DNA from: Cronobacter malonaticus LMG 23826
GTDB lineage: Bacteria > Pseudomonadota > Gammaproteobacteria > Enterobacterales > Enterobacteriaceae
Assembly: GCF_001277215.2 (NCBI RefSeq)
Contig: NZ_CP013940.1
Span: 1,302,001-1,366,000, forward strand
Direction: 5' to 3'
DNA: 64,000 nucleotides
The notes under the pieces are model-generated. The model made no database searches. It had not been told where the DNA came from and was given only the letters and a program-made list of their open reading frames with translations. Shown piece by piece: positions 25,969 through 43,246 of the stretch; the first letter of the stretch is position 1; every line of letters starts with the position of its first letter. Both the position numbers and the translations under genes were made by a program.

Positions 25969-26093
25969 CGCATTGAACACCTGAGGTTGCAATGGCATTA
26001 TCGGAAGTCATTTTAAGTGTCTCTGCGGGTTCTGTTAGATCGTAGTGATTCAGACATCCGCACCTCTCACTATCACCAGCGATTCGAGCAGGC

Positions 26094-26426
26094 TTGCGGA
26101 TTACGTCGATTTACAAGCCAAAGACATTTTTTAGGCCTATTCGTTCCTATTATTTAAAAGTGGATTTGGCTTTTGCAATAGGCTTGCTTAATAGTAAATA
26201 CTACTCTGCATTCAAAGCGATTGACAAAGTTAGAAATAATTATGCGCACAAACATGATTATAACGTCACTCTTGAAGAATTGAATGTTTTTAAATTAGAT
26301 TGGGCAGACATAGACAATAAAGCATTTTCTGTCGCATGTAGAAAAAATTATTGGCGAGGGGGCAGGTATTGCCACAATTTTTTTATGCTGGAAAACAATA
26401 CATCTTCTCGACAAACAAGAAGATGA
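26094..26426 (+). pseudogene. truncated MltR/DUF4145-like HEPN-fold protein
   Basis: 110-codon frame without an ATG or ribosome site (first in-frame start is a TTG). The segment RSYYLKVDLAFAIGLLNS then YYSAFKAIDKVRNNYAH resembles the core of MltR/DUF4145 proteins, including the RxxxxH pattern of HEPN folds. The expected N-terminal portion is missing, so it is probably a decayed gene. It runs into the bidirectional terminator at 26426-26451. Confidence 0.45.
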
Positions 26427-26451
26427 AAAAAGGGGCTTGCGCCCCTTTTTT
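26426..26451. terminator. bidirectional terminator
   Basis: AAAAAGGGGC-TTGC-GCCCCTTTTT: perfect 10-bp stem with A- and T-runs on each side, between two convergent genes. Confidence 0.88.
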
Positions 26452-26702
26452 CATTTACGCCCTTTGTTGGACTGAGCCAGAACAGAAGCGGCAAGTTCTT
26501 TGGTCAATTCACTTGAGCGGGGGTTGTTGAGGGCAGCAGATGCTTTATGTTCCATTGCACCGCTTGTTTGATTCGAAGAACCCTTTTGAGACAGTGCTGA
26601 ACCAGCAAGGCTCTTTTGGATTCCAGATGCGTTAGGGTTGTTCAAGGTTTGTGCTGCGACTGATGCGACTTTGCTTGATGTTTGCTTTGAATTATTAGCC
26701 AT
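26451..26702 (-). CDS. small conserved Ser/Ala/Asn-rich protein of unknown function
   Basis: 83 residues, low complexity, starting MANNSKQTSSKVASVAAQTL. Internal near-repeats follow the pattern KxxAxxxLxNPxxSxxxKxLAxSxLSQ, seen twice (residues about 9-45 and 50-82). No membrane segment or known domain is visible. AGGTG stands upstream of the ATG at 26702. It is followed by a strong terminator and preceded by the inverted repeat at 26734-26772. Confidence 0.65.
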   Translation of the reverse strand: MANNSKQTSSKVASVAAQTLNNPNASGIQKSLAGSALSQKGSSNQTSGAMEHKASAALNNPRSSELTKELAASVLAQSNKGRK

Positions 26703-26733
26703 TCTCAACACCTATTCATGAAGTGAATTTATA

Positions 26734-26772
26734 TACATGTTGTATTTGTTTTTTGAATAAACACAACATGTA
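26734..26772. repeat. inverted repeat upstream of the small protein gene
   Basis: TACATGTTGT and ACAACATGTA form perfect 10-bp arms separated by 19 AT-rich bases. The position, 32 bases upstream of the minus-strand start, suits an operator or promoter-overlapping dyad. Confidence 0.5.
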
Positions 26773-27060
26773 GTATTAAGGATAATGATCCCCGCTTCGC
26801 TTTGCAATCATGCACAATCACTTTACTGGATAAATTCACAGTTAATAAAGCGTGCGAAATTTAATGCTGGATAACCAGTATAGAGATGTAATAAATCAGA
26901 TGATCATACTGGTTTTTTTGACTGTTATTTGAGCGTGACAATGAATTTAGTGGGGTACAAACTGAGGCACAGCGTGAAGAAAGGATAACCATAAGTGCCA
27001 AGCTTGCATCCCCAAGCAACTTCCCCTAAGCTGGCAAAAAGTAAGCTATTTTGTACCAAA

Positions 27061-27134
27061 TGACTCGGGGTGCCCTTCTACGTGAAGGCTGAGAAATACC
27101 CGTATTACCTGATCTGGATAATGCCAGCGTAGGG
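27061..27134 (+). promoter_or_regulatory. orphaned TPP riboswitch aptamer (left copy, lacks the P1 3' strand)
   Basis: From TGACTCGGGG through CTGAGAAATACCCGTA to GCCAGCGTAGGG this is a near-perfect thi-box, differing from the E. coli thiM aptamer at very few positions. The P1 5' strand TGACT is present. The bases after GTAGGG are GGCCGA instead of AAGTCA, so P1 cannot close. What follows is a short hairpin (GGCCGAAATTCGGCC) and then the integrase gene. I read this as the 5' part of the resident thiM riboswitch, cut by integration. Confidence 0.9.
27107..27134 (+). repeat. left 28-bp direct repeat (attL core)
   Basis: Identical over 28 bases to 37270-37297, starting ACCTGATCTGG and ending CAGCGTAGGG. 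It is the P4/P5 and 3' P2 part of the TPP aptamer. Sequences diverge on both sides (TT versus CC before the repeat, G versus A after it), which marks the strand-exchange segment. Confidence 0.88.
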
Positions 27135-27218
27135 GGCCGAAATTCGGCCTACTCATCATGAGGTTGTCTCTCTTTTTGTCGGTGCGCAATGCACTTGAGG
27201 TACAAAAAGGGTGTATTT

Positions 27219-28520
27219 ATGGGGTACAGAAATCTTCCATACACGTTTCAGAGAAATGGTAACTACTACCTGCAAATCCGGCTTTCCAATGGCAGGATAT
27301 ATAAGAAATCCCTCCTCACTGACAGCTATCGTGAAGCATCTGCTTTGATGATTGGCGTGACTCCGCATATTCCTTTTGTTAAATCATTAGCTACGCCGAT
27401 CCTCGTGTTCGAATCATTTTTGTCTAATCTGATTGCGTCAGAACGTAAGGCTGCGAGAAATCCACTTTTGCCCCACCAGCAGATTGCTCCTCCTGTTGAA
27501 ATCGTGGAATCTCAACCGCCAGCCGAACCGGAAAAAGTACTAACCCTCTCGGATGCGTGGGCGACGTATAAAGAGGAAAAGGGGCGAAACTGGACGAAAT
27601 CGATCTCAATGGCAAATGAGCGCTACATGAAAGTGCTGCTAACAGTCTTGGGAGGGGAAACTGATGTAGCGACGATCACCAAGCAGGACATTAAGCAGGT
27701 GATGGAAGTGGTTGAAAATCTCCCTAAGCGCGTTGTTCAGCCCTACCGCTCAATGACCATTCAGCAACTGATTGAGTGCGATGATGTTCCACCTGAGCAA
27801 CTGGTAGGCGTTGAGGCCATCCATAAGCACCTCAAGCTGTATAAATCACTCTTCAAAACCTTCCTCACAGAAAGCAAAGACATTTTATCTAAGTCGCCAA
27901 CTGATGGCGTAGTGGCTGCACCATCGAAAGCGAGATTTGGTGCATACAGCACAGCGGAGATGAAAAAGTTTGTAGGGTGGGCGCTTAAGCAGCCCGACAA
28001 CTGGCAAAAATGGATCACCTTGTTATTAGCATACACGGGAGCGAGAAGAGGCGAGATAGGAAGGCTGGAGAAGTCACAGATTAAATTCGACGAAGATAGC
28101 CAGCGTTACTATTTCCTGATTGCAGAGGGAGGGCAGGGTAAAACCGAAAATGCTACAAGACAGGTAGTCATTCACCCTAAGTTAATCGAATGGGGGTTCA
28201 TGGAGTACGTTGATCGCCAGTGGAAAGAGCGGATTTTCTCGGAAGTGGCAGGTACGAACATGACAAAGATCGGTAAAGTGTTTGCAGATCTGCGTGATCA
28301 GCTTGGTATCCCTTATCTTGATGATTATGGGCAACGGCGATTATTGCATTCCATTCGTCACTCGGTCTGTTCTGCGGCAATGGCTGGTTGGGTATCGAAC
28401 ATTCTACATCTGCAACAGACGGTCGGACATGAGAAGAGCGGTGGAATTACTAAGCGTTATTTGCATACATTTCCGTTATCCACAGTCAGTTATGTTGTTG
28501 ATGGTATAGATTGGGAATAA
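27219..28520 (+). CDS. tyrosine recombinase / integrase
   Basis: 433 residues. The N-terminal arm-binding region (MGYRNLPYTFQRNGNYYLQI) and core-binding domain (SDAWATYKEEKGRNW) precede the catalytic domain. The catalytic set is Arg in TGARRGEIGRL, then HSIRH (His-x-x-Arg-His), GH in TVGHEKSGG and the nucleophile Tyr in TKRYLHTF. AAAAAGGG lies 8 bases before the ATG at 27219; an ATG 30 bases further up is less likely. It points into the element from the left repeat. After integration it sits directly behind the former thiM promoter/aptamer. Confidence 0.93.
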   Translation: MGYRNLPYTFQRNGNYYLQIRLSNGRIYKKSLLTDSYREASALMIGVTPHIPFVKSLATPILVFESFLSNLIASERKAARNPLLPHQQIAPPVEIVESQPPAEPEKVLTLSDAWATYKEEKGRNWTKSISMANERYMKVLLTVLGGETDVATITKQDIKQVMEVVENLPKRVVQPYRSMTIQQLIECDDVPPEQLVGVEAIHKHLKLYKSLFKTFLTESKDILSKSPTDGVVAAPSKARFGAYSTAEMKKFVGWALKQPDNWQKWITLLLAYTGARRGEIGRLEKSQIKFDEDSQRYYFLIAEGGQGKTENATRQVVIHPKLIEWGFMEYVDRQWKERIFSEVAGTNMTKIGKVFADLRDQLGIPYLDDYGQRRLLHSIRHSVCSAAMAGWVSNILHLQQTVGHEKSGGITKRYLHTFPLSTVSYVVDGIDWE

Positions 28521-28734
28521 AATCTTCAGCGCTCCTTTTTTATTGAATGCATTGATTTTAATTATTATTTTTTGCTTTTCTTATTCTTGATATGGATGTT
28601 GTATATGCATCTTTTTTATATAAAATAATTTTTTTATTCCATTATGTTTTTAATGGATGCTATTCAGCGTTCAAAAATTAGATTGTTCTTATGGATAATG
28701 CTATGTTTGGCAAGGGGATTTTAAGGATGATTCT

Positions 28735-29358
28735 ATGTTAAAAATATTTACTTTAGTTGTTGTGCTTTTTTCCACGTTTGCTTACGGGGAATCGATTACA
28801 CAAGCTATGAAAACGCCTGGAGATACAAGTAAAGAGCTGCCAGCGAAAGGCTATCAAGACGTAAACCGGATAGAAAACCAACAACTGAGTTTGGCTGAGA
28901 GCGAAAAACAGGAACTCTACTCACTGATCAATAAAAATAGCCAGGCAATCGAACTCCTTGTAGCAAACCAAGAAAAACTAATCAATGAGGTTAATGGAGT
29001 TAAAGGAGATGCGAAAGTTGACTATTCAGGGTGGACGAGTGTTTTACTTGCTTGTGTCGGTATAATTATTACAGTTATGAGCGTTATATTGGCATTGATA
29101 TCTATTATTGGTTATAGAAACTTCAGGAAAAGCATAGAGCTAAGTGTGAAAAAAACATCAACTGAAGTTGCTAAACAAGAAACCGTTATTCAGATAGATG
29201 CAGTTGCGAAAAAAGAATTGGTTCGTCTAATCGATGAGGGTGCTTTAGCGAAGCATCTTGAAAGTGCAGTTGATATGATTTTCCTTCGAAGAAAACCCGA
29301 ATTAAAAGACATTGGATTTGATAAATATCCTGAGTTGGATAAAGAGGAAGGTGAATAA
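28735..29358 (+). CDS. signal-peptide, coiled-coil, single-span membrane protein
   Basis: 207 residues, no family recognised. Residues 1-19 are a signal peptide ending AYG; about 50-85 is a charged helical coiled-coil stretch; about 101-127 is a strong membrane segment (VLLACVGIIITVMSVILALI). A cytoplasmic tail of about 80 residues with a second helical region ends in acidic residues. Its TAA shares one base with the ATG of the ImmA-like gene, so the two are translationally coupled. It is probably the membrane sensor or effector of a three-gene unit. Confidence 0.75.
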   Translation: MLKIFTLVVVLFSTFAYGESITQAMKTPGDTSKELPAKGYQDVNRIENQQLSLAESEKQELYSLINKNSQAIELLVANQEKLINEVNGVKGDAKVDYSGWTSVLLACVGIIITVMSVILALISIIGYRNFRKSIELSVKKTSTEVAKQETVIQIDAVAKKELVRLIDEGALAKHLESAVDMIFLRRKPELKDIGFDKYPELDKEEGE

Positions 29359-29858
29359 TGAATCATTCACAAGAATGGGAACGGTTGCCAATTGAAAAGA
29401 AGAACGTGATAATTAAGTATCACTCTCAGTATCCAGTTAAATTAGGTGCACTTGCAAAGGAGCTTGGTCTGGTTGTTAGGTTAGCCACATTGCCTGCTAA
29501 TATTTCTGGAGAAATTAAGGACTGTGATGGAGTAGTCACCATTCGAGTGAATAAGCATGATATGCAGGCAAGACGGCGTTATACTTTAGCCCATGAAATA
29601 GCGCATTTTCTGCTGCATAGGCATCTTCTCCGTGATGGTATTACAGATGATGTGTTGTACCGCTCATCGCAGTCAAATCAGATTGAGGCAGAGGCCAATC
29701 GTCTTGCCGCAGATATAATCATGCCTATGCATCACGTGGATGAATGCTACGCACGTCATTTCAAGGGTAAGAAAGATGCAGTATTATATGAAGCAATTGC
29801 TAAAGATCTCGACGTATCAACAATAGCGCTGAAATATAGACTGGGTGTGAATGGATAA
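29358..29858 (+). CDS. ImmA/IrrE-family metallo-endopeptidase
   Basis: 166-residue soluble zinc peptidase. The HEIAH zinc motif is at 79-83 within RYTLAHEIAHFLLH, and the third ligand lies in QIEAEANRLAADIIMP, the typical ImmA pattern. Such enzymes cut repressors or regulators to switch on mobile-element or stress genes. No repressor gene stands next to it; instead it is coupled to the upstream membrane protein and followed 9 bases later by a beta-type protein. Confidence 0.9.
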   Translation: MNHSQEWERLPIEKKNVIIKYHSQYPVKLGALAKELGLVVRLATLPANISGEIKDCDGVVTIRVNKHDMQARRRYTLAHEIAHFLLHRHLLRDGITDDVLYRSSQSNQIEAEANRLAADIIMPMHHVDECYARHFKGKKDAVLYEAIAKDLDVSTIALKYRLGVNG

Positions 29859-29867
29859 GGGACTAAC

Positions 29868-30977
29868 ATGTTGATAAGTAACTACTCTTATATACCGATT
29901 CTCTCGTTGAAACCAGCGGAAATGGCTGCGTTGGAAGAATTGCCTGCTAAAGACAAACATTTGATGCTTCCTTTAATTTCGTTGAAAAAATGGGCGAATT
30001 CAAAGTCATTCATAAAATCTACAGAACGTATTGAAAAAGCGATAGGAAAAAATTATTGGATAGCCGATATCGATAAAGAGCATCTTTTAATGGCCAAGCA
30101 AAGACTCGCAGATGGGGATGATGGCGTTTCTGCGGAGATTGTCAGCCTCGCGGAGTCGAATAATGGATATGAGAATTGGGTTAATTTTATTTCAACTAAT
30201 GAGAACATAATCCCAACTCTCCAGCTCAGTGACTTATCTGCATTAGATTTGCAATTGTCTAATTTTTCAAACATTAATAAAACAATAGTTGTAAGATTCG
30301 AGTTGTCAGGCTCTCATTCCATTGAGCTTAGAGACTTTTCTTTCGTTGTTAAGAAACTATCTGAAAGAAAGTTTCCGCAAGGAATATTGATCGTGTTAGA
30401 TTATGGTGATGTTAATAGATTCAATTTGATTGAGTATTATAAAAACTCAAATTTAGTGAAGCAGTTAAATAATTTGATGCCAGAGGCCTATTTCTGCGTA
30501 TCTGGAACGTCTTTTCCTTATTCTTTTGCAGGTTCCTATCGTGGAGAAATTCCAATTTTTGAGCGCCAAATTTATAATAAAGTTGTTGCAGATTGTCAGG
30601 GTGTAAAGTTTATTTACTCAGACCGTGGTAGTACCCGAGCTTCAGGCAATGATGGTGGAAGCGGGACACCACCACCACGCATTGATTACCCATTAAAAAA
30701 TGAATGGCGATTCATTCGTAAAGAATTGGATGATACCATTGAAAAAGAGGTTCTTTATCAAGAGGCGGCTATCGAAGTAATGAACTCAGAATACTGGGAC
30801 GCAGAGCTGAGATTATGGGGTACTCAGATGATCGAAAAGACAAGTTTGGGTGATCAATACGGAATCACTTCTGCTAATAGGGCTACTGCCGTCCGTATAA
30901 ATTTACATCTTTACCAACAGTTACATTATTTTGACGTGTTAAAATCATTGGATACAGAAGAAGATTGGGTTGATTAA
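29868..30977 (+). CDS. T4 beta-protein family protein
   Basis: 369 residues resembling the Beta_protein family (PF14350). It starts YIPILSLKPAEMAALEEL, followed by LMLPLISLKKW, with the conserved GxxFPYSFAGSYRGEIPIFER-like block around 210-235 and a C-terminal block on ATSANRATAVRINLHL-like sequence. The biochemical role of the family is unknown; members are common in prophage and defence-island cargo. It is the third gene of the unit and ends at a strong bidirectional terminator. Confidence 0.8.
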   Translation: MLISNYSYIPILSLKPAEMAALEELPAKDKHLMLPLISLKKWANSKSFIKSTERIEKAIGKNYWIADIDKEHLLMAKQRLADGDDGVSAEIVSLAESNNGYENWVNFISTNENIIPTLQLSDLSALDLQLSNFSNINKTIVVRFELSGSHSIELRDFSFVVKKLSERKFPQGILIVLDYGDVNRFNLIEYYKNSNLVKQLNNLMPEAYFCVSGTSFPYSFAGSYRGEIPIFERQIYNKVVADCQGVKFIYSDRGSTRASGNDGGSGTPPPRIDYPLKNEWRFIRKELDDTIEKEVLYQEAAIEVMNSEYWDAELRLWGTQMIEKTSLGDQYGITSANRATAVRINLHLYQQLHYFDVLKSLDTEEDWVD

Positions 30978-30982
30978 TTTAT

Positions 30983-31016
30983 AGCGATATTACTTCGTCA
31001 AAGTGATATCGCTTTT
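30983..31016. terminator. bidirectional terminator
   Basis: AGCGATATTACTT / AAGTGATATCGCT arms with one mismatch, 5-base loop and a T-run. It lies between the convergent beta-type and sce7726-like genes. Confidence 0.8.
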
Positions 31017-31025
31017 GAATTGAGT

Positions 31026-31718
31026 TTATAATTTTTCTATTGCGTGTATAAGCGAGTCTATATTTCTTGCGTGTAATATTTTTTTTCGAGGTTCTGCCTT
31101 ACCGCTTTGACCATAATTATTATAATTATATGCATCGTAATAATTTATTTCTCTTTTACTGTACCTTTTTTTTAAATTGTTAATTGCTTCTTCTCTTAAG
31201 TATTTAGTCGGAATGGAAAGCAGGGATAATTCTACTATTTTTCTTTTTTTATCTTTAATTTCAATATTTGATTTTTTTGCTAAGCTCAATAATTCAATGA
31301 GTGTCATCATTCGGATGAATTTCATTTTATCGGTTATTGGTAATATTTTCCCTCTCCTAACTATTTTTAGCTTACTACCAGCAACTTCCCAAACAGCAAC
31401 GTGTTTCGGTGTTAATAAAAGGACTTTATCGATGTGACGTGGAGCAGCGACAACCGTTACCTTATCAAAATGTGTAAGATATTCATCAACTTGTCCCTTT
31501 AGTCGACTGAGTGAGTCGAATTCACTTTTTATTTCGTATGCGAAAATTTTATCGTTTCTTGAATGAATTAAATCTACTCGTCTGCTGAAATTAGCGACAC
31601 TGAATTCATCGATTACAAAATTATTAGAAATAGCTGTTGCGCTATTTTCTTTTAGAAAAATATCTTTAATAACTAATGCTTTTATAGCTGACTCAAGCAT
31701 TTTTTCTGTACTGTTCAT
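31026..31718 (-). CDS. sce7726-like PD-(D/E)XK nuclease-fold protein
   Basis: 230 residues. The segment RRVDLIHSRNDKIFAYEIKSEFDSLSRL contains D...E-x-K spacing of PD-(D/E)XK nucleases, then QVDEYLTHFDKVTVVAAPRH, the hallmark of the sce7726 family. The C-terminal 80 residues are basic and end ARNIDSLIHAIEKL. sce7726-type proteins are often encoded near beta-like or sce7725 proteins, as here, though the two genes are convergent. Function is unproven; a nuclease in a conflict system is likely. Very AT-rich. Confidence 0.75.
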   Translation of the reverse strand: MNSTEKMLESAIKALVIKDIFLKENSATAISNNFVIDEFSVANFSRRVDLIHSRNDKIFAYEIKSEFDSLSRLKGQVDEYLTHFDKVTVVAAPRHIDKVLLLTPKHVAVWEVAGSKLKIVRRGKILPITDKMKFIRMMTLIELLSLAKKSNIEIKDKKRKIVELSLLSIPTKYLREEAINNLKKRYSKREINYYDAYNYNNYGQSGKAEPRKKILHARNIDSLIHAIEKL

Positions 31719-32047
31719 TCAAATAATCCTAATATGTTACTTGGACAGTATACACTATGACCATTTATTTAAAAAGCTCTTAGTTTTGTTTCATTTTTTA
31801 ATATAAGACAAGTGTTGTTATGATTTTAATCTTTATGAAAAAAAGTGTGGGATTTCGATGGTTTAAGACAGGTGCTGCATATTCATAATAAAAATTGGAT
31901 GCTGACTGAGTTAAAGATCTTACTGAAGAAGAATCACAGTAAAGTACGAAGGCGCATGTTATTAACGATTGCTTGGAGTACTAAGTGCCGTTATATTTGG
32001 CACTCTGAAGTACAATATTCAGAAATCTCAAATATCAACGAGGTTGT
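31719..32047. other. AT-rich spacer without a recognised gene
   Basis: A frame at 31845-32069 (74 codons) has no ribosome site and runs into the resolvase 3' end, so I do not call it. The stretch probably holds the leftward promoter of the sce7726-like gene. Confidence 0.4.
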
Positions 32048-32605
32048 TCAGCTTCCTTTAAGCCGATAGAAGGTGGCTTTGCTGATCGCTAACATTTCTT
32101 GAACTGTTGTTGGTGGTAAACCCTGCGCTAATAACTCTCGTACTTGTTCTACGGTCGCTTTGATCGGTCTACCGCAATGCTTACCTTCAAACTGAGCTCG
32201 TTTGATTCCTGCGGCTCTACGCTCTGCGATTAGGTCTTTTTCCAGGCTGGCAAGTCCTGCCATCATAGTAAGCATCGCTCTACCCACTGGTGTTGAAAGA
32301 TCAAACCCCTCTCGCAAGCTGATAACCTTTACGCCTTTCGTCTGCAACATTTCCACGGTGGAAAGAACATCAATCGTGTTACGTCCCAGGCGGTCTATAG
32401 CAATCACGATCAGCGTATCGCCTTCTCGCACATAACTTAGTAGTTCACCAAACCCTGGACGTTCTCCTGCCTTGACTGCACCACTCACTGCTTCATCGCT
32501 GAACCAGCGAGTAACGTTATAACCAGCATCGGCAATCTGCTGCTTCTGGTTTTCAATGTTCTGGTCGCTGGTGGAAACTCGCACGTATCCGATCACAGTA
32601 GTCAT
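32048..32605 (-). CDS. small serine recombinase (resolvase/invertase family)
   Basis: 185 residues. The N-terminal catalytic domain has nucleophile Ser in YVRVSTSDQN and the conserved IDRLGRNTIDVLSTVEML and RAMLTMMAGLASLEKDLIAERR helix-E region. A short C-terminal helix-turn-helix (VQEMLAISKATFYRLKGS) binds the site. Tn3-type resolvases of this size resolve dimers or cointegrates. The promoter-side region 32617-32678 carries repeated and inverted motifs that could be its res site. It suggests a plasmid or transposon origin for this part of the element. Confidence 0.93.
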   Translation of the reverse strand: MTTVIGYVRVSTSDQNIENQKQQIADAGYNVTRWFSDEAVSGAVKAGERPGFGELLSYVREGDTLIVIAIDRLGRNTIDVLSTVEMLQTKGVKVISLREGFDLSTPVGRAMLTMMAGLASLEKDLIAERRAAGIKRAQFEGKHCGRPIKATVEQVRELLAQGLPPTTVQEMLAISKATFYRLKGS

Positions 32606-32616
32606 GATATCCTCTA

Positions 32617-32678
32617 AGTATCAAAAGGTAGTATCAAAATGATATCTGTCTCAAAATAAAATATCAACCTTTTGAGAC
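32617..32678. repeat. candidate res-like region upstream of the resolvase
   Basis: Direct repeats AGTATCAAAA at 32617-32626 and 32630-32639 are followed by an inverted repeat GTCTCAAAA ... TTTTGAGAC (32648-32678). The size and placement fit recombinase subsites overlapping its promoter. Confidence 0.45.
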
Positions 32679-32804
32679 AAGGAGAAGCCGCATTCTTTCG
32701 TTGTGTCAGTGTGGTCTTAAAAGGAGATGATTATGAGACTGGATAATCGAGGTTTAAGAATTTTGGTTTAGAACGGAGGCTTGTTGAGCTTAGATGGTTG
32801 CATC

Positions 32805-32838
32805 TTAAAAAACGGAGTAGGGCGTGATTGCTCACGCC
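32805..32838 (-). terminator. terminator of the small exported protein gene
   Basis: GGCGTGA-TTGC-TCACGCC hairpin just past the stop of the gene at 32844, with TTTTTT further along on the minus strand. Confidence 0.7.
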
Positions 32839-32843
32839 TTCGT

Positions 32844-33194
32844 TTACTTCTCAGAACACAGGCTCAGCGTGTAGAGTGCCGTTTGACCATCGTTGTTAGT
32901 TGGGCGCATAACGAAAACAGGCTCACTGCCGTTGTCAATGTACGTGACGGCAATCCCACCGTCTGGGGTGGCGTACATCTTCGCAATACTTTTCTCTCCA
33001 ATGAAACCCAGCCGCCAGGTTTTACCACCCATGCTCACCTTCATGCTTTTGTCCTGCACATCAAGGCGAGTTTCGACTGAAGATTTCTGGCTACCAGAAT
33101 CGATCTGCCCTTCCTGAATGGCTTTACAGGTGAATGTGGTTGCACTTGAGGCGAAGGGGAGAACGATCAGCGTTGCGAGAATCAATTTTTTCAT
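32844..33194 (-). CDS. small exported protein of unknown function
   Basis: 116 residues. A signal peptide of about 18 residues (MKKLILATLIVLPFASSA) leads a small beta-rich domain with two Cys (FTCKAI near the start and LSLCSEK at the end), suggesting one disulphide. No family recognised. AAGGAAGACC precedes the ATG. Upstream are GATCAAT dyads (33262-33297), probably its control region. Confidence 0.65.
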   Translation of the reverse strand: MKKLILATLIVLPFASSATTFTCKAIQEGQIDSGSQKSSVETRLDVQDKSMKVSMGGKTWRLGFIGEKSIAKMYATPDGGIAVTYIDNGSEPVFVMRPTNNDGQTALYTLSLCSEK

Positions 33195-33261
33195 GGTCTT
33201 CCTTTTGGTTGTTAATTAAGAATTCATCGGGGACCATTATAAATTGTTAATTGATAAAAAC

Positions 33262-33297
33262 GATCAATTTCTATTGTATCGATCGATAAAATTGATC
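33262..33297. promoter_or_regulatory. GATCAATTT inverted repeat
   Basis: GATCAATTT (33262-33270) and AAATTGATC (33289-33297) with further GATCGAT and TTGAT half-sites between and beside them, in the spacer between two divergent small-protein genes. Probably a shared operator. Confidence 0.45.
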
Positions 33298-33385
33298 AAT
33301 ATCGGAACTATAATCCGCGTGCACAGTTGCCATGGAGCGAGGGTTTTGGCTACAAAATCAACGGGAGGATGATATTAGAAGAGCA

Positions 33386-33580
33386 ATGTTGGTGATATGT
33401 GGGCTACTGTTTTTACAGTTGGCAGCAGCAGGACAGATCACGATGACCGATCCCCAGCAGGAAAAGACGGAGAGCGGAAAGACACTTTGCACGTACGAGA
33501 ACCGTCACTATGTTTTCACCTACGTCACTAAAGGGCAGTGTCCGTATGCAAAGACATTTGACACTGATGATTCTCAGTAG
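33386..33580 (+). CDS. small exported or membrane-anchored protein
   Basis: 64 residues in the preferred reading: a hydrophobic start (MLVICGLLFLQLAAAGQ) and a short polar domain with Cys in LCTYENRHYVF and KGQCPYAKTF. The frame is open 18 codons upstream to an ATG at 33332 without a ribosome site. AGAAGAG precedes 33386. Divergent from the gene at 32844. No family recognised. Confidence 0.5.
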   Translation: MLVICGLLFLQLAAAGQITMTDPQQEKTESGKTLCTYENRHYVFTYVTKGQCPYAKTFDTDDSQ

Positions 33581-33927
33581 ACGCTGGGATTAAACGCGCC
33601 TGGTATTTTAAATTCGAATCAAGGCAGGTTGCTTAACACCAGCATCATAATTATTTATATTATCACTTCTTCGAATACTGCACGACGCAAGGCTTTACGC
33701 AATGTGCGTGATAGTGTCAATTGCCACTATCATTGTTGGTTTGGCAACTTTACCCCGCTCAATAAAGCTTCTTTACCTGCCAATTACCACCGGATTTGAT
33801 GCCTGTTTGATAGGGATAATCTCAGATTAATCTTAGGCTTTGCTGCATAGACGGTTCGGAGTGAGCAGGGCGACGGTCTACCGTTGGGTGAAGGGCTGAA
33901 AGTACCGTTTGTTACTCTCGTAATATA

Positions 33928-34047
33928 CGGAAAAAACCCGTCTATCAAAATTAGCGGGATGAAGCATACACGGGAAAAACCCGACTGTTCAGAACGGAGA
34001 CACGGGAATAACCCGAGTATTCGGCAATGATGCCAGGGAAAAACCCG
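33928..34047 (+). repeat. four iteron-like imperfect palindromes CGGGAAAAACCCG
   Basis: Copies at 33928-33940, 33971-33983, 34003-34015 and 34035-34047, each a 13-mer with at most one change (CGGAAAAAACCCG, CGGGAAAAACCCG, CGGGAATAACCCG, AGGGAAAAACCCG). Start-to-start spacing is 43, 32 and 32 bases, the latter about three helical turns. This arrangement suggests cooperative binding of an initiator or repressor. Confidence 0.75.
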
Positions 34048-34059
34048 TGCAATAGAAAG

Positions 34060-34104
34060 AGATTTTAGAAATCGATTCTAAAGAAAGAGATTTCTAAAAG
34101 ATCT
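34060..34104. repeat. inverted repeat next to the iteron-like array
   Basis: AGATTTTAGAAATC and GATTTCTAAAAGATCT form long arms with a 2-base offset, around 15 bases that themselves repeat the motif GATTCTAAAG. It lies directly downstream of the 13-mer array. Confidence 0.5.
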
Positions 34105-34685
34105 GCGTTTTGCGCTTGTCGCAAAGATCTTTGCTGGCGTGTATCGCCTGGCAAGTGACCTGTTTCGCCGTTGGGGGGCTCCTCGGTCAGCCGCTCACGA
34201 CGCAGCAAAGCGTTACCTCTTTACAAGTTGGGATTGTGCCAGGCTTTGGCCTTGACGTGAGTCAGGCACAAGCATATTACGCCGTGGCGTAAATCACCTT
34301 TGCGCTGTGCGCGTAATTATCATCTGACCAACTACCGTTGACCATCTGATAAGCTGACTACCTTCAACCATCCATTCATGAACCATCGTTCACTCATGCC
34401 AGGTTTCAGCAAGTCAATGGTTCACCGTGCTACGGTTCATCCAGCAACCTAACCAATCACCACCCGTTAATAACTATCGTTATTCTCGTGCTAAGGCTCT
34501 TGGGGTTGGGGGATAAGAGCCAGATACAAGCAGAACGCATCAGACGCGCTGTGAGCGATTATAAGAGGGTAGGTGGTGCAATGGTAGCCTGAATGTGTTA
34601 GAACACCGTACAGGGCGTTACAGGAGGTTTTTACAAATTATGTATCGGTGAACTGCTCGGGTGTGGATCATATCATAAACTTAGC

Positions 34686-34715
34686 TTGACAGGTAGAATT
34701 CTTTTTTGATATAAA
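34686..34715 (+). promoter_or_regulatory. sigma-70-like promoter
   Basis: TTGACA at 34686-34691, an 18-base spacer, TATAAA at 34710-34715. First of two strong rightward promoters before the small operon. Confidence 0.6.
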
Positions 34716-34758
34716 GCACGCAATGCACTTGACTTTTACTAACTAATTGAAAAGATGC

Positions 34759-34788
34759 TTGACATTAGGTGTCGTTTTAGTGTATTAT
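34759..34788 (+). promoter_or_regulatory. sigma-70-like promoter
   Basis: TTGACA at 34759-34764, an 18-base spacer, TATTAT at 34783-34788. Transcription would begin near 34795 and pass the hairpin at 34856-34890 before the gene at 34924. Confidence 0.7.
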
Positions 34789-34855
34789 TAGAAGTATAGC
34801 GATAATCATTATCACATAACTTTCATCCAACAACATTCCATCACGCATGAATTGC

Positions 34856-34890
34856 AGCCTCCACCGGGTAATCGGTGTGGGGGCTTTTTT
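34856..34890 (+). terminator. attenuator-like hairpin in the leader of the small operon
   Basis: GCCTCCACCG ... CGGTGTGGGGGC stem (with G-U pairs) followed by TTTTTT. It lies between the promoter and the first gene, so it would stop most transcripts unless relieved. Confidence 0.65.
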
Positions 34891-34923
34891 GCGTCTGGAG
34901 AAAACCAAACAGGAGCAAATACA

Positions 34924-35115
34924 ATGCGTTACTTCAACGTTGACCAAATCTACGCAGATTTGATAACAGGCCGAACAACACGAGGACTTGTTTACAGTTC
35001 CCTTGTTCGAGCGCGTAAGAGTGAACAGCTCGACAGGGTGGAGATGTTTGAAGAAGCGATCCGACGCTTTGACGAATGGCGAGCAACGCCAAACTTCACT
35101 CCCTTGACCAGCTAA
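34924..35115 (+). CDS. small basic protein of the plasmid-like operon
   Basis: 63 residues (MRYFNVDQIYADLITGRTTR...), largely helical and charged, no family recognised. AGGAG lies 8 bases before the ATG. First gene after the attenuator-like hairpin; the next gene begins 17 bases later. Confidence 0.65.
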   Translation: MRYFNVDQIYADLITGRTTRGLVYSSLVRARKSEQLDRVEMFEEAIRRFDEWRATPNFTPLTS

Positions 35116-35132
35116 CCCAGGAGGAAACCAGA

Positions 35133-35300
35133 ATGATCGAGAAGAAAACCGAACTACCGCCGTCCACATCGTTAATGATACCGGATGCCACATTTCAGAT
35201 TTTGTTCAAAGAAGCGAAGCGCCGAAAAATGAGCGTAAGCGCACTCCTTCTTGAAGAATGCCAAAGTCTGGCGGTCAAATACTCGAAAGCTGACGCGTAA
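35133..35300 (+). CDS. small protein, possible ribbon-helix-helix type
   Basis: 55 residues starting MIEKKTELPPSTSLMIPDA. The stretch TSLMIPDATFQILFKEAKRRKMSVSALLLEEC has the strand-helix-helix spacing of ribbon-helix-helix regulators; that is an inference from pattern only. AGGAGG stands 9 bases before the ATG. Confidence 0.6.
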   Translation: MIEKKTELPPSTSLMIPDATFQILFKEAKRRKMSVSALLLEECQSLAVKYSKADA

Positions 35301-35402
35301 TAACCACGCACCAGCATTAACGCCCACCTCACGAATGAGAAGCGGAGAAAACCAAATGAAGAGCATTCGTAATTTACTGAGCATACATAGGAGCAAACAA
35401 CA

Positions 35403-36203
35403 TTGGCAGAGAGAAAAATTATCAATGGGGATGTATACAAATACGCTTCAATCGAAGAAGCATTATTATCATCAACCCGAATTACAAACCTCAAAACTGG
35501 TGAGTCAGTAAAGCTAATCGGTAACGCCAAATTAGCATATATGATCCTCCGGAAGAGGTTCCATTTATTCACCGACCAATCAACAGACAATAAGTATTAT
35601 ACAACTGGTAAGCACTACGACACCATTGAAAGCATCGCTGAGGCAATCGGTGTTTCTGACGTTGGTACAGTGAGCAGTGCAATTGGCAGAATGGAAGCAG
35701 CCGGACTGCTAACCAAAAAGAAATTTGGAAAAACTTACGAATGGACTGTTATCGATCTCTCCCCAGAATTATTCCTTCTCGAACGTAACACCGGGACGAC
35801 AAAAAAGCCTGTCTGGGTGGACTGCCTGAAACATCCAGTATTCGGTAACGCCAAAGAAGACATGCCAGCCGTACAGCAGGAGGAACAGGGCGAAGAGGCC
35901 AACGCCGATCCGATGTGCGAGCTTGACGAAGCACCGAAAGAAGAAGCGCAAACGCCGGAAAAGGTGAAGCCAACACCGAAGCCAAAGATAAAGAAACCTG
36001 TAACACCGTCAACCGCACCAAGCGACGATAAGGAATATTCTACCAAATTGCATCAATTCGAGAGTGCTGGACATTGGTATCAATTTTCTGAGTATCAGTT
36101 ACCAGATTTGGAGCGCTTTAAATGTGACGGGAAACTAACGAACGAATACGCCTTGGCCTATCTTGATAAACACACGTCACAGCAAACTATGAATACCCAA
36201 TAA
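35403..36203 (+). CDS. winged-helix protein of the plasmid-like module
   Basis: 266 residues from a TTG start with AGGAG 9 bases upstream. Residues about 70-115 form a winged helix (TIESIAEAIGVSDVGTVSSAIGRM, then LLTKKKFGKTYEWTVI). A Pro/Glu/Lys-rich linker (about 160-215) connects to a short C-terminal domain with two aromatic-rich segments (GHWYQFSEYQLPDLERFKC). I do not recognise the family. Architecture and context (iteron-like repeats, resolvase, small upstream genes) suggest a replication or partition DNA-binding protein. An overlapping 51-codon frame with its own GGAG (ATG near 35356) runs into it out of frame and might couple translation. Confidence 0.7.
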   Translation: MAERKIINGDVYKYASIEEALLSSTRITNLKTGESVKLIGNAKLAYMILRKRFHLFTDQSTDNKYYTTGKHYDTIESIAEAIGVSDVGTVSSAIGRMEAAGLLTKKKFGKTYEWTVIDLSPELFLLERNTGTTKKPVWVDCLKHPVFGNAKEDMPAVQQEEQGEEANADPMCELDEAPKEEAQTPEKVKPTPKPKIKKPVTPSTAPSDDKEYSTKLHQFESAGHWYQFSEYQLPDLERFKCDGKLTNEYALAYLDKHTSQQTMNTQ

Positions 36204-36214
36204 ACAGGAGGATT

Positions 36215-36304
36215 ATGATTACCCAGCTCTACATCTTCTTATTCTTCCGTGCTGTTTGGTATATTGCCGCCCGCATCCAGAAAAGAAAAAAAACGAACAC
36301 TTAA
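36215..36304 (+). CDS. 29-residue single-span membrane peptide
   Basis: MITQLYIFLFFRAVWYIAAR followed by a basic tail IQKRKKTNT. AGGAGG stands 3 bases before the ATG, and the gene follows the winged-helix gene by 11 bases, so it is likely translated. Hydrophobic helix with a positive tail, as in small toxins or membrane modulators; function unknown. Its last 4 bases overlap the end of the convergent gene at 36301. Confidence 0.55.
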   Translation: MITQLYIFLFFRAVWYIAARIQKRKKTNT

Positions 36305-36735
36305 GGATTACATTGACGAAACTCTTCAGTGACGTTTTCTACGCCAGGCGTTTTAAGAAGCACGCCATTGAGATGAATCACAAATTTGTTATCGTGGCTG
36401 GCATATCCGGCAATTTGGCGACAAATACCCACAGGGACACGAACTGCCATCACTACTTCGGCATCTTCATTAAGCTGAATGCCGATCAGGTAATCGAAAT
36501 CCCAGGAGCGAATTCCGCCTAACTGGGTTTTATTGACTCTGGTTTTGACCTGCAACAGCGTCCCATCGCTTAATCTTACATCGGCGCTTTTATGGGAGTT
36601 TGGCAATAATTCACCCCCATAAAGTTGCTTTACGAGATGTTCACCATAATCACCAGTGACATTACCACCTCGGGCAAAAAATGCCTTTGCAAGCAGCCAC
36701 CGCTTCTCGATACTGCCGATATGCTTCACGTGCAC
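36301..36735 (-). CDS. putative restriction-endonuclease-like fold protein
   Basis: 144 residues. GDYGEHLVKQLYGG, then KSADVRLSDGTLLQVKTRV shows the E ... D ... (Q)xK arrangement of the PD-(D/E)XK superfamily, followed by WDFDYLIGIQL. No specific family recognised; it could be a nuclease or a Holliday-junction-type protein, or be inactive. The start is a GTG with GAGG 8 bases upstream. It lies 46 bases downstream of a small regulator-like gene on the same strand, probably as an operon. Confidence 0.65.
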   Translation of the reverse strand: MHVKHIGSIEKRWLLAKAFFARGGNVTGDYGEHLVKQLYGGELLPNSHKSADVRLSDGTLLQVKTRVNKTQLGGIRSWDFDYLIGIQLNEDAEVVMAVRVPVGICRQIAGYASHDNKFVIHLNGVLLKTPGVENVTEEFRQCNP

Positions 36736-36781
36736 CCATCTAACCTCGTTAACTAAACGTAGATACCGATGATCTTGTTAA

Positions 36782-37027
36782 TCACAGCTTCGAGGTATCA
36801 AGCCCAGCGGCTTTAAGCCGCTCGGTGAGATTCCTCATTTTGCTGAATTCAGTACCAAAACTGGCTTTAAGTCCCACACCCTCGCAAAACTCTTTAGCAG
36901 TGACGTTTTTCAGGTGGTCGGCGTATTTGATCATCTGGAGGTGCATTTCAACCGTTTGACCATTTCGCGGTGCGCTGTTGATGGCTTGCTTAATGTTCTC
37001 GTAGATCTGGGTTTCTGTCATTTGCAT
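36782..37027 (-). CDS. small putative DNA-binding regulator
   Basis: 81 residues, all-helical by pattern. The segment VTAKEFCEGVGLKASFGTEFSKMRNLTERLKAAGL could form a helix-turn-helix. It starts at the first ATG (37027) or the second (37021), the latter with GAGAT upstream. AT-rich palindromes lie immediately upstream (37032-37075), suggesting autoregulation. First gene of a leftward pair with the nuclease-like protein; this may be a controller-effector pair. Confidence 0.6.
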   Translation of the reverse strand: MQMTETQIYENIKQAINSAPRNGQTVEMHLQMIKYADHLKNVTAKEFCEGVGLKASFGTEFSKMRNLTERLKAAGLDTSKL

Positions 37028-37031
37028 ATCT

Positions 37032-37075
37032 CACTTATCAAATTTAGATAAATAATATAAATTAGCTAATTTTGA
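37032..37075. promoter_or_regulatory. nested palindromes upstream of the leftward regulator gene
   Basis: AAATTAGCTAATTT (37059-37072) is a perfect palindrome. It lies within a larger dyad TTATCAAAT ... ATTTTGATAA spanning the promoter of the gene at 36782. Fits an autorepressor site. Confidence 0.5.
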
Positions 37076-37103
37076 TAATCAAGGGGTTTTGTCATACAGA
37101 TAT

Positions 37104-37137
37104 GGGGTACAAACTGAGGTATAAGGTGGGGTACAGC
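37104..37137. repeat. GGGGTACA repeats at the right end of the element
   Basis: GGGGTACA at 37104-37111 and 37128-37135. The stretch GGGGTACAAACTGAGG is identical to the one at 26952-26967 near the left end. Possible integrase arm sites. Confidence 0.45.
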
Positions 37138-37223
37138 GCGAAGAAGCGATAACCGGAAGGGCGGGCTTGCAACAGCAAGCAACTTACCCTAAGCTGGCAA
37201 AAAGTATAGAGATTCAATCTTCA

Positions 37224-37303
37224 TGACTCGGGGTGCCCCATCACTGATGGGCTGAGAAATACCCGTACCACCTGATCTGGATAATGCCAGCGTAGGGAAG
37301 TCA
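37224..37303 (+). promoter_or_regulatory. TPP riboswitch of thiM (chimeric right copy)
   Basis: Full thi-box: P1 TGACT / AGTCA (37224-37228 and 37299-37303), CTGAGA, ACCCGTA, and GCCAGCGTAGGG. The P3 arm reads CCATC ... GATGG instead of CCTTC ... GAAGG in the left copy, a paired change that keeps the helix. When thiamine pyrophosphate binds, thiM expression should fall. Everything up to the 28-bp repeat comes from the element side; the P1 3' strand and expression platform belong to the thiM side. A TATAGA at 37205-37210 is a possible -10 for this transcript. Confidence 0.95.
37270..37297 (+). repeat. right 28-bp direct repeat (attR core)
   Basis: Identical to 27107-27134; followed by AAGTCA, which completes P1 of the thiM riboswitch. 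Confidence 0.88.
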
Positions 37304-37348
37304 GATGCCTGTCCGGTATCCCGTCTTCGCGCCTGGCAGGAGAGAACC

Positions 37349-38146
37349 ATGTCTTCTGACCTGCTTTGCGGCTCAAACGCCGCGCCTGTTGTCACCCAAC
37401 TTCGCCGTCACGCTCCGCTGGTGCACTGCATTACTAACGATGTGGTGCAAAATTTCACTGCCAATGTCCTGCTCGCGCTTGGCGCCTCGCCCGCGATGGT
37501 GGTGGATACTGAAGAAGCCGCGCAGTTCGCGGCCATCGCCGATGCCTTACTCATCAACCTCGGTACGCTCACACACCCGCAGCAGCAGGCGATGCGTGCG
37601 GCCATCGACGGCGCCTGCGCGGCGGGCAAGCCGTGGACGCTCGACCCGGTCGCCGTCGGCGCGCTCACGCTGCGCACGGAATTTGCGCGGGAGATCCTGG
37701 CGCGTCGCCCAGCCGCCATTCGCGGCAACGCCTCGGAAATTCGCGCGCTGGCAGGCGAGAGCGGCGGCGGGCGCGGCGTTGACGCGACCGAAAGCGCGCA
37801 TCAGGCGCGTGAGGCGGCCCGCTTACTGGCGCGCCGCACCGGCGCAGTCGTCGCTGTGACCGGCGAGGTCGATTACATCACCGATGGCGAACGCACGGTC
37901 GCGGTCGAGGGCGGCACCGGGATGTTGACGCGCGTGGTGGGCACCGGCTGTGCGCTCTCGGCGGTCGTCGCTGCCTGCTGCGCGCTGCCGGGCGACCGTC
38001 TGGAGAATGTCGCAACGGCCTGCTGGCTGATGAAGCGGGCGGGCGAACAGGCGCTGACCGTCTCCCGTGGCCCCGGCAGTTTCGCCAGCGCGTTGCTGGA
38101 TAATCTGCATGCGCAGGCGTTCGGAGGTGCTCATGAAACGCATTAA
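37349..38146 (+). CDS. thiM: hydroxyethylthiazole kinase
   Basis: 265-residue salvage enzyme that phosphorylates 4-methyl-5-hydroxyethylthiazole for thiamine synthesis. The family blocks [46 protein letters not shown] and [12 protein letters not shown] (anion hole and catalytic Cys) are all present. AGGAG is 8 bases before the ATG. It lies directly behind the TPP riboswitch and overlaps thiD by 14 bases. Confidence 0.97.
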
Positions 38147-40196: not shown

Positions 40197-40510
40197 GGTG
40201 TGGCGAGGTAAACGGTGGGTGCGCTGCGCTTACCCACCCTACGAAACCACAAAAGCCACCACTGGTGCCGTATGTTTTCCCTTGCGGCTGCCCTCTGGCC
40301 GCGAACGTGACAGAGAGAATCTGCGTTGTGGCGAACGGAACAGGTTACCAGACGTACATATTCCCGGGTTCCACGGTTCACCTGTATTGAACAGGTAATG
40401 CCTTGCATTTGACGGCGGGTGCTGATGGTTGGTGCGCTACGCTTACTCACCCTGGAACGTTTCATACCTTTGCATCACTGGTAGGGCGGGTAAGCGTAGC
40501 GCACCCGCCG
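40197..40510. repeat. diverged copy of the long intergenic repeat
   Basis: Shares blocks with the tandem units at 43.2-44.1 kb: GTGCGCTGCGCTTACCCACC at the edge, TTTCCCTTGCGGCTGCCCTC, AACGTGACAGAGAGAATCTG and TTGAACAGGTAATG. It lacks the long GGGGGC hairpin segment found in the tandem copies. A second GTAGGGCGGGTAAGCG motif follows at about 40481-40510. No gene lies in 40134-40532. Confidence 0.7.
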
Positions 40511-40532
40511 TCCCGCAATGCCATATATTCAT

Positions 40533-41432
40533 TTATTTAAGCAACGGACAATCCGGCGGCAGACGGCAATGCAGCGCACCAGGCTCTACCACAATGCGGA
40601 AATGCTGTCCGCTCAGCGGCTCGCCGTCGAGGTTAAAGGTAATCTCATGCGGCGCAGTTATCTCAAACCAGGCCGACGCGCCGTCGATAATATTCGGGCT
40701 CTCTTCCGGCTGCGTCAGCGTGGTGAACAGCGCGGGCAGCAACTCTTCGCCAGTAAAAATACGCAAATGAAGCAGACCGTCGTTAATCAGCGCCCCCGGA
40801 CACAGCTCCTGACCGCCGCCCGCCTGACGTCCGTTACCGATGCCGATAACCAGCGCGTCGCCCTGCCAGTGAAAATTCTCACCGCGAATTTCGCAGCGAT
40901 CTGCTTTCAGGGCGTCCATACGCATCAGCCCGTGGATCAGATAGGAGACGCCGCCGAGCGCCGCTTTTAGCCGCTCGGGGGTTTCGGTGGTAATGCGCGT
41001 ACCGAAACCGCCCGTCGCCATATTGATAAACCAGGTTTTATCGTTCACGTGCGCAATATCAATCGGCACCGCGCGGCCTTCAATGGCCAGCTTCAGCGCC
41101 AGTTCAATATCGTCCGGCACGGCCGCGCTGGTCGCGAAATCGTTCGCGGTGCCGAGCGGCAGCAGGCCGAGCGCCGGACGTTTTTCCTGCGTGACACAAG
41201 CCAGCGCCGCCGCCACTTCATTAATGGTGCCGTCGCCGCCTGCGGCGATCACCGTTTCCGCGCCCTGATCCGCCGCCTCACTGACATAGCGCGCCGCATC
41301 GCCTTTCTCCCAGGTTACGCGCACCTCTATCGGGTGGCCCTGGTCACGCAGCAGCTTCACGCTGCCGCGCAGGATCTCATTATCAGCGCTTTTACCATTT
41401 AATATCAGAAAAGAACCAGCGGAACGGGACAT
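40533..41432 (-). CDS. yegS: lipid kinase YegS
   Basis: 299-residue member of the diacylglycerol-kinase fold family; E. coli YegS phosphorylates phosphatidylglycerol in vitro. The nucleotide-binding GGDGTINEV (about 65-73) and the [13 protein letters not shown] loop are intact, and [10 protein letters not shown] follows. Length is as in E. coli. Leftward, downstream of cyaR and trhP. Confidence 0.95.
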
Positions 41433-41510
41433 GAATACACTCCTTTGAATACGGATTCAGAGAGTTTATCGCAGAGTCTGGGGAGTCGCTTAAGAACTGG
41501 CTGAAAGGAC

Positions 41511-41598
41511 AAAAAAATAAGCCTGCGTAAGGGAGATTACGCAGGCTGAAGGAGGTGGTTCCTGGTACAACGGGCATTTATGGATTATGTTTTTCAGC
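41511..41598 (-). ncRNA. cyaR: Hfq-dependent small RNA CyaR
   Basis: About 88 nt on the minus strand beginning GCTGAAAAACATAATCC, with the hallmark loop region ACCAGGAACCACCTCCTT and a terminator of 10-bp arms (41521-41530 and 41537-41546) followed by a T-run. It matches E. coli CyaR closely and has the same position downstream of trhP (yegQ). In E. coli it is Crp-activated and represses ompX, luxS, nadE and others; the CCACCTCCTT segment pairs with target ribosome sites. A TATCAT-type -10 lies just upstream (about 41605-41612) and a TGTGA half-site at about 41634. Confidence 0.93.
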
Positions 41599-41682
41599 GC
41601 CGGGGATGATAACCGCTTTAAACATAACGGTTTGTGATCCCATTCGAAGAAACATTCGCGCGGTAAAAATAACCCCTTTAAA

Positions 41683-43044: not shown

Positions 43045-43246
43045 GATGAACTCGTTCTGATGACAGGTCAGAGCCGCTTCAACGGTGAAGCGGTTGGGGG
43101 CACGTTTACCCCCACGTTAAGGGCGGGAATTGTAGCGCCCGCGGCCCGGGCGTGCAAACCGTTATGGGGAGGCTTGTGGAAGCAAGGCGGGTGCGCTGTG
43201 CTTACCCGCCCAACGAAAACCTGATTCACGTTCTGCGTAGGGTGGG
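43045..43246. other. trhP upstream region and first GGGTAAGCG motif
   Basis: No gene. It contains the presumed trhP promoter and an inverted pair of the GGCGGGTGCGCTGTGCTTACCCGCC type at about 43188-43210, the same edge motif as in the downstream repeats. Confidence 0.5.

Follow-up and report, generated by a model that had tools for sequence, protein, structure and literature searches.

Integrative islands of Enterobacterales with the thiM riboswitch as their probable chromosomal target

The leader of thiM, which bears a thiamine pyrophosphate (TPP) riboswitch, is most probably the target of a family of site-specific integrative islands that has spread through the Enterobacterales, a reading to which a probability of about 0.92 is given. 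The case described here lies in a stretch of 64,000 nucleotides from Cronobacter malonaticus LMG 23826 (NZ_CP013940.1, positions 1,302,001 to 1,366,000 of the forward strand; hereafter, the window). There, an island of 10.2 kb stands between two complete TPP aptamers (Rfam RF00059, gathering cut-off 54.3 bits), with the gene of a tyrosine integrase (int) at its left end and thiM-thiD past its right end. The GC content of the island is 41.9%, compared to 56.3% and 60.4% in its flanks.

An earlier note on this DNA had proposed that a mobile element is inserted in the thiM TPP riboswitch, that the direct repeats bounding it are a 28-bp piece of the aptamer, and that thiM follows the right copy. 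The two Rfam aptamers flanking the integrase island, and an exact 28-bp repeat inside both of them, agree with this proposal, and the coordinates that it gave (27061-37303) are correct to within the aptamer ends. The extent of the duplication, however, had been underestimated. The exact run is embedded in a segment of ~180 bp with 80% identity (~26951-27134 versus 37115-37297), which in the window comprises nearly the whole aptamer plus ~110 bp of leader, so that almost the entire aptamer is doubled and not 28 bp alone. The features of both ends are as follows:

27056..27151, + strand: left TPP aptamer beside int; Rfam, 61.8 bits; 3' strand of the P1 helix replaced by element sequence
27107..27134, + strand: left 28-bp repeat (exact identity run), with the 26-bp core common to the family (core columns of 32 left/right pairs)
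27135..27149, + strand: palindrome of 15 bp directly after the left core, read from the sequence
27189..28520, + strand: tyrosine integrase, 443 residues as listed; PF00589, PHROG integrase
37219..37315, + strand: right TPP aptamer before thiM; Rfam, 74.2 bits; comparison of K-12 with E. coli C and EC21Z-063
37270..37297, + strand: right 28-bp repeat (exact identity run)
37349..38146, + strand: thiM, hydroxyethylthiazole kinase, target operon; TIGR00694, 297.8 bits
38067..38933, + strand: thiD (open reading frame as listed); TIGR00097, 347.6 bits

The integrase start, as listed, lies 54 nt past the left core and on the same strand, with the host thiM upstream region before it. By eye, the protein appears to hold the residues of what we take to be the catalytic motif of these enzymes. 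The palindrome after the left core is kept with compensating changes in some close relatives (E. coli C), and is imperfect in others (L005).

Occupied and empty sites at thiM

The clearest view of the insertion is provided by Escherichia coli. In K-12 MG1655, rcnR adjoins thiM and the site is empty, and in strains C and EC21Z-063 an island of ~11-12 kb with an aptamer at each end lies between these two genes. When aligned to K-12, the left junction consists of the host upstream region and the aptamer up to GCGTAGGG, followed by the element, and the right junction leads from the element leader through the aptamer into host sequence running into thiM. From this order, thiM of strain C is ~11 kb away from its native upstream region. 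The right copy of EC21Z-063 has an A in the P3 loop where the host side has a G, and since this A is absent from the host side, the 5' part of the copy is element-borne. Furthermore, the stretches preceding the two aptamers are unlike each other in both strains, the aptamer alone being common. Empty thiM sites, which the earlier note had recommended looking for, are also present in Cronobacter: each of the six other species of the genus (6/6) carries a single thiM aptamer that has the same core, without a second copy and an intervening island. The right copy of the window reads GTACC where all six congeners read GTATT, which suggests that the crossover took place within the last 26 bp, on the 3' side of this position. 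By this junction logic, the right aptamer of the window would be element-borne in its 5' part and host-derived in its 3' part.

The same arrangement is observed in a set of 35 elements, chosen from sequences already fetched (G064 not among them), which yields 32 left/right pairs once the two pairs from Erwinia typographi are set aside together with L099, which lacks a right copy. The two ends agree over all of the 26-bp core, ACCTGATCTGGATAATGCCAGCGTAG, in 29 of the 32 pairs, and the other three differ at one to three positions. Downstream of the core, every right copy goes on like K-12, with GGAAGTC, and element sequence takes over in the left copies. The two sides differ in the P1 helix, of which four to five of the five pairs can form in all the right copies (33/33), and three at most in 31 of the 34 left copies; the middle one of the three Erwinia typographi aptamers is omitted from this count once per side, as is L099 among the right copies. 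The P3 stems of the right copies vary in sequence, yet keep three to six pairs. The aptamer before thiM scores 73.2 bits at the right attachment site (attR) of E. coli C, a match for the 71.2 bits of K-12. The left aptamer is above the Rfam cut-off in the window and in two E. coli strains, and several other left copies are below it. RNA folding of the leaders reproduced the known aptamer fold poorly, and is not used as main evidence.

Distribution of the integrase and its relatives

Integrase matches of any kind are found in 78 of the 392 genomes of the taxonomic family, and matches that reach 54% identity over 220 residues or more in 16 of them (L026-L041, the window included). A thiM-type aptamer lies at the integrase in all 16 of these loci, the window's own among them, and in 19 of 21 loci of the genome-contig collection. 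The two misses correspond to L011, a 5'-truncated gene with the aptamer and thiM still on its right, and to L025, a fragment of 95 residues. In the same collection, thiM comes after the right-hand aptamer in 20/20 loci (L005-L024), although the linkage itself is not established for L008, L018, and L021 because their right end is on another contig. Homologous integrases lying mainly beside unrelated sites, which the earlier note had considered fatal for its proposal, are therefore not what these collections hold; nor was any intact relative found that carries the same DNA without the direct repeats, the exceptions being decayed or incomplete (L099, which is cut by IS3, and L025). For weaker or short integrase matches, the insertion site was examined for part of them. 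Among six genomes with integrase fragments only (at least 63% identity), four hold them within ~3 kb of a TPP aptamer (G216, G225, G222, and G388). As for close relatives outside chromosomes, the phage collection gave one weak match and the plasmid collection 12, all of them below 60% identity.

In E. coli, the integrase is matched in 221 of 5426 genomes, in 174 of them over at least 80% of the query. A query spanning both aptamer and integrase is matched over at least 80% of its length in 170 of the 5426 genomes, and among the matches listed all 30 begin at the aptamer. Twelve E. coli regions hand-picked from the integrase searches all lie directly downstream of rcnR (12/12), with thiM on the other side in 11, the remaining stretch being too short.

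In a quick tree, 28 integrases from TPP sites, together with L101 (the one relative given by a scan of viral contigs, discussed below), form one group (SH-aLRT support of 100) that adjoins a group inserted in the leader of rluB; the TPP group needs two changes in the tree because L101 is counted as a group of its own. The tree came with a long-branch warning, which includes L023/L039 and the rluB group, and leaves out the truncated frames L006, L007, L009, L015, L024, and L044, as well as L011, which has no usable frame.

More distant relatives use other targets. Among 25 such loci, Rfam places 16 beside RNase P RNA (rnpB; L042-L046, L052, L102-L110, and L112) and three at tRNA-Ser, and has no match there for the remaining six. 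Direct repeats of the rnpB 3' end are found ~7-12 kb downstream in four of the five rnpB regions examined. Four of these six (L047-L050, 4/4) use an 18-bp hairpin sequence in the rluB leader, ~15 bp before the start codon; RluB was identified by NCBIfam in two loci, and the remaining two share the leader and first codons with these. The rluB-leader regions L124-L127 include insertions in both orientations relative to rluB. Only L053 and L111, both partial genes, are without an assigned site among the 25. Like the window family, with which they share 26-43% identity, the rnpB and rluB-leader integrases are encoded directly beside their target, and their elements have end repeats (in eight of the nine regions examined). 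Unlike it, they use other targets, and their intact proteins are mostly longer (open frames of ~500-600 residues versus ~440-490).

Recombination at the aptamer and competing explanations

Altogether, these data are consistent with a model in which the tyrosine integrase recombines the attachment site of the element (attP) with that of the host (attB) inside the aptamer of the thiM leader, ACCTGATCTGGATAATGCCAGCGTAG being the common core. The attP site would bring a leader and the 5' part of an aptamer of its own, and because of this a complete aptamer again precedes thiM after integration; TPP control may be preserved. What ends up before int is the upstream region of the host together with the 5' part of its aptamer, without the 3' strand of P1. 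Both ends of the element also hold repeated copies of a motif, TGRGGTAYA, that could be bound by the integrase as arm sites, and a sequence before the right aptamer might act as an element-borne promoter for thiM:

27196-27204 and 27220-27228, + strand: two putative integrase arm sites, motif TGRGGTAYA
37103, 37115, and 37127 (span 37103..37135), + strand: three putative arm sites 12 bp apart, motif TGRGGTAYA
37167..37195, + strand: candidate element-borne promoter, TTGCAA-17 nt-TAAGCT; weak, at the same place in many close relatives

The motif occurs seven times in the 64-kb window, six of them at element ends, and the mean in shuffled sequences is 0.53, with none of 100 shuffles reaching seven. 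In most close relatives, the putative arm sites are placed at fixed offsets (-167/-155/-143 on the right and +89/+113 on the left).

The left side of the window is complicated by what seems to be the trace of a previous insertion:

26044..27055, no strand assigned: probably what is left of an earlier element of this kind, with an arm site (26951-26959) and an element-type leader

Host similarity ends at 26043, and the segment 26445-26778 shows 69% similarity to the end of an element in L007. Since the apparent right end of this older element precedes it, the left copy of the window would be a tandem junction rather than a clean host attL. The same type of element leader also stands before the left copy of L005, L010, and G065, and in Erwinia typographi (L076/L077) two islands follow each other in tandem, which makes three aptamers and two integrases in all.

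Some observations do weigh against the riboswitch being the site at which this family integrates, or against parts of the model. The other two of the six fragment genomes, G241 (22 kb from an aptamer) and G250, hold integrase pieces without an aptamer nearby, as does L025 with its integrase fragment, and L099 is devoid of a right copy. The 32 pairs are not independent, as three E. coli islands are near-identical, and most E. coli copies read GTATC on both sides, where the element-borne side cannot be told. The exact arm motif is absent from a more divergent subgroup and from the right ends of L007 and L008. Finally, the candidate promoter is weak (shuffle p of 0.055 in the window, and higher in other elements), and a consensus scan gives no + strand promoter at its position.

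Among the alternative explanations, the one that best survives is that the integrase recognizes the thiM leader simply as DNA, the riboswitch nature of the site being incidental and its rebuilding merely preserving the operon; the chances of this being the case are put at about even. Use of aptamers other than those of the thiM type was not seen, the genome's two further TPP aptamers depart from the 29-base thiM pattern at four and five positions, and the distant relatives use targets as diverse as the 3' end of rnpB and the rluB leader. On the contrary, the P3 stems of the right copies, variable in sequence but still paired, are what would be expected if the RNA matters. This explanation is compatible with the riboswitch as integration target, and does not contradict it.

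An improbable alternative is that the left aptamer works as a riboswitch controlling int, which would couple excision to the thiamine status of the cell. The short distance between the left core and int, on the same strand and behind the host thiM upstream region, would fit this proposal, as would the left aptamers that pass the Rfam cut-off in the window and in two E. coli strains. This possibility was evaluated through P1 pairing and is disfavoured: the helix is broken in 31 of the 34 left copies, several left copies fall below the cut-off, and the predicted fold of the left copy has a separate hairpin after the core. Less credible still is an ordinary duplication of the thiM leader, with the intervening DNA arriving by another route and the integrase as a bystander, since the ~180 bp that are similar on both sides of the window, pre-aptamer leader included, are explained by the tandem remnant lying there, and the proposal is contradicted by the differing pre-aptamer sequences of E. 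coli C and EC21Z-063, where the aptamer alone is common, by the junctions of E. coli C versus K-12, and by an integrase group that follows the same site across many genera.

Cargo, a second integrase at the same aptamer, and known systems

The 18 elements that are complete (both ends on one stretch) measure 3.4 to 12.2 kb from core to core, and the integrase is present in all of them (18/18; E-value of 1e-4, at least 40% of its length). Apart from int, the window island encodes the following proteins:

28735..29358, + strand: cargo protein of 207 residues, without match in Pfam, PADLOC, PHROGs, or NCBIfam at an E-value of 0.001
29358..29858, + strand: ImmA/IrrE-type (M78) peptidase, CapP-like; PF06114; PADLOC capP, 6.6e-25
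29868..30977, + strand: Beta-family protein; PF14350, 1.1e-56; PADLOC beta, 2.8e-46
31026..31718, - strand: sce7726/cll family protein; NCBIfam NF033832; PADLOC cll, 1.4e-46
32048..32605, - strand: serine resolvase/invertase family recombinase; PF00239, 1.7e-42; in 11 of the 18 complete elements
32844..33194, - strand: protein of 116 residues; in 8 of the 18 complete elements
35403..36203, + strand: DUF6945 protein with a weak replication-initiator-like match; PF22182; phrog_391, E-value of 8.3e-4
36301..36735, - strand: DUF6998 protein, PADLOC mREase_II; Pfam and PADLOC
36782..37027, - strand: small HTH_73 protein at the right end; PF24718; in 8 of the 18 complete elements

The islands may be able to excise, and the HTH_73 protein can be proposed as a candidate excision factor. 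PHROGs scans of ten window proteins gave no capsid, terminase, or other phage structural gene, and two E. coli relatives hold a gene annotated as 'major capsid protein'. Neither was a relaxase or conjugation gene found among the ten proteins in Pfam and NCBIfam scans, no search for oriT having been made.

The slot after the integrase varies among elements and, according to E. coli annotations, may hold SIR2 (L056), DUF1837 plus a helicase, HNH, GmrSD, TIR plus NACHT, or an ATP-dependent nuclease. In the E. coli elements L095, L096, L097, L098, and L100, it rotates among DUF1837 plus helicase (which we presume to be Hachiman-like), HNH, GmrSD, and TIR plus NACHT. In the window, it is taken up by the CapP-like peptidase together with the Beta and sce7726/cll proteins. 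The content of this slot is largely of the anti-phage-defence type. Unnamed proteins found in it may be undescribed defence systems. Outside the island, downstream of thiD, the window has an apparently repetitive region (40304-44008) with several exact direct repeats of at least 28 bp, and the small RNA CyaR/RyeE at 41515-41600 (- strand; Rfam, 92.4 bits).

The thiM aptamer of E. coli is also occupied by a different kind of element. In strain SMS-3-5 (L137, NC_010498 955493-984793), an element lies between rcnR and thiM whose annotated genes are those of a primase, capsid, protease, portal, and terminase, with no tail genes. A capsid-gene satellite also occupies the aptamer in L138-L140. The SMS-3-5 satellite, which we take to resemble the capsid-forming phage-inducible chromosomal islands (cf-PICI), shares with the window island the riboswitch and both neighbours, rcnR and thiM. 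However, its integrase has no meaningful similarity to that of the window (best E-value of 1.3), its ends share a different core inside the aptamer, AGAAATACCCGTAT, and the aptamer is left split: only its 3' half remains before the occupied thiM, not rebuilt, and no TPP match at the Rfam cut-off precedes thiM in the two satellite-occupied regions (2/2). Among phage records, this integrase comes closest to a 16.5-kb induced element (50.7% identity), then to a Klebsiella phage (49.5%), with the phi80-type integrases at 31%. The satellite integrase is present in 75 of the 5426 E. coli genomes, and the four satellite regions inspected are all next to rcnR (4/4), with thiM seen in both of those whose far end was covered. 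L101, in which the 5' half of the aptamer is missing, had been considered as a counter-example, and was rejected as such since its left neighbour is 99.8% identical to the right end of the SMS-3-5 satellite, a match that indicates a tandem of two different elements.

A broader, tentative proposal is considered possible though rather less than even in its chances: the thiM riboswitch would be a convergent integration site with its integrity governed by mobile elements, where the island family swaps in its own promoter and aptamer and takes over thiMD transcription. The satellite with the unrelated integrase, by splitting the aptamer, would release thiM from TPP control for as long as it stays, a form of regulated riboswitch integrity.

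The closest known logic is that of the dusA islands which, in the available text of PMC4482086, are an integrase-defined family with one conserved chromosomal target, where the target gene has its 5' end exchanged for sequence of the island and putative promoters are described before and after insertion. The window family resembles them in having one conserved target whose 5' end is replaced by island sequence. It differs from them in that the dusA target is a coding sequence and the one described here is a ligand-binding leader RNA; the window element is not at the 5' end of dusA but in the thiM leader. Replacement of the 5' end of a target is therefore known from the dusA islands, and it is the riboswitch target that seems to be new.

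Islands in tRNA, tmRNA, and small RNA genes, and the rybB prophages (PMC4383910 and PMC10121019, as far as their available text goes), likewise have a structured RNA as their target, and tRNA and tmRNA targets are restored by the inserting element (PMC4383910, same scope). These are free-standing RNAs, whereas a cis-acting leader has to stay joined to its gene, and for that reason the island must bring upstream sequence plus most of the aptamer. The defence-island hotspots of E. coli (Hochhauser 2023, PMC10121019, main text) resemble the window family in holding varied defence cargo at fixed sites. The word 'riboswitch' appears 0 times in that main text (41 hotspots; the hotspot table stands outside this count) and, by term look-up in the text available, 0 times in PMC12884075, PMC13386857, PMC7545054, and PMC6092414, with 'thiM' appearing 0 times in PMC2617782. 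The claim of the earlier note that no riboswitch has been described as an attachment site stands within the scope covered, i.e., none is mentioned in titles or abstract openings among the matches listed, and is valid for that scope alone.

With the thiM leader, the classes of chromosomal integration target come to include a leader RNA that senses a metabolite, and the same riboswitch appears to have been reached independently by two integrases that have no meaningful similarity. The site is widespread in E. coli, where an aptamer-containing query is matched in 5373 of the 5426 genomes. The rebuilt copies represent a natural test of which riboswitch parts are interchangeable, and mobile DNA may be rewiring vitamin metabolism at this locus.

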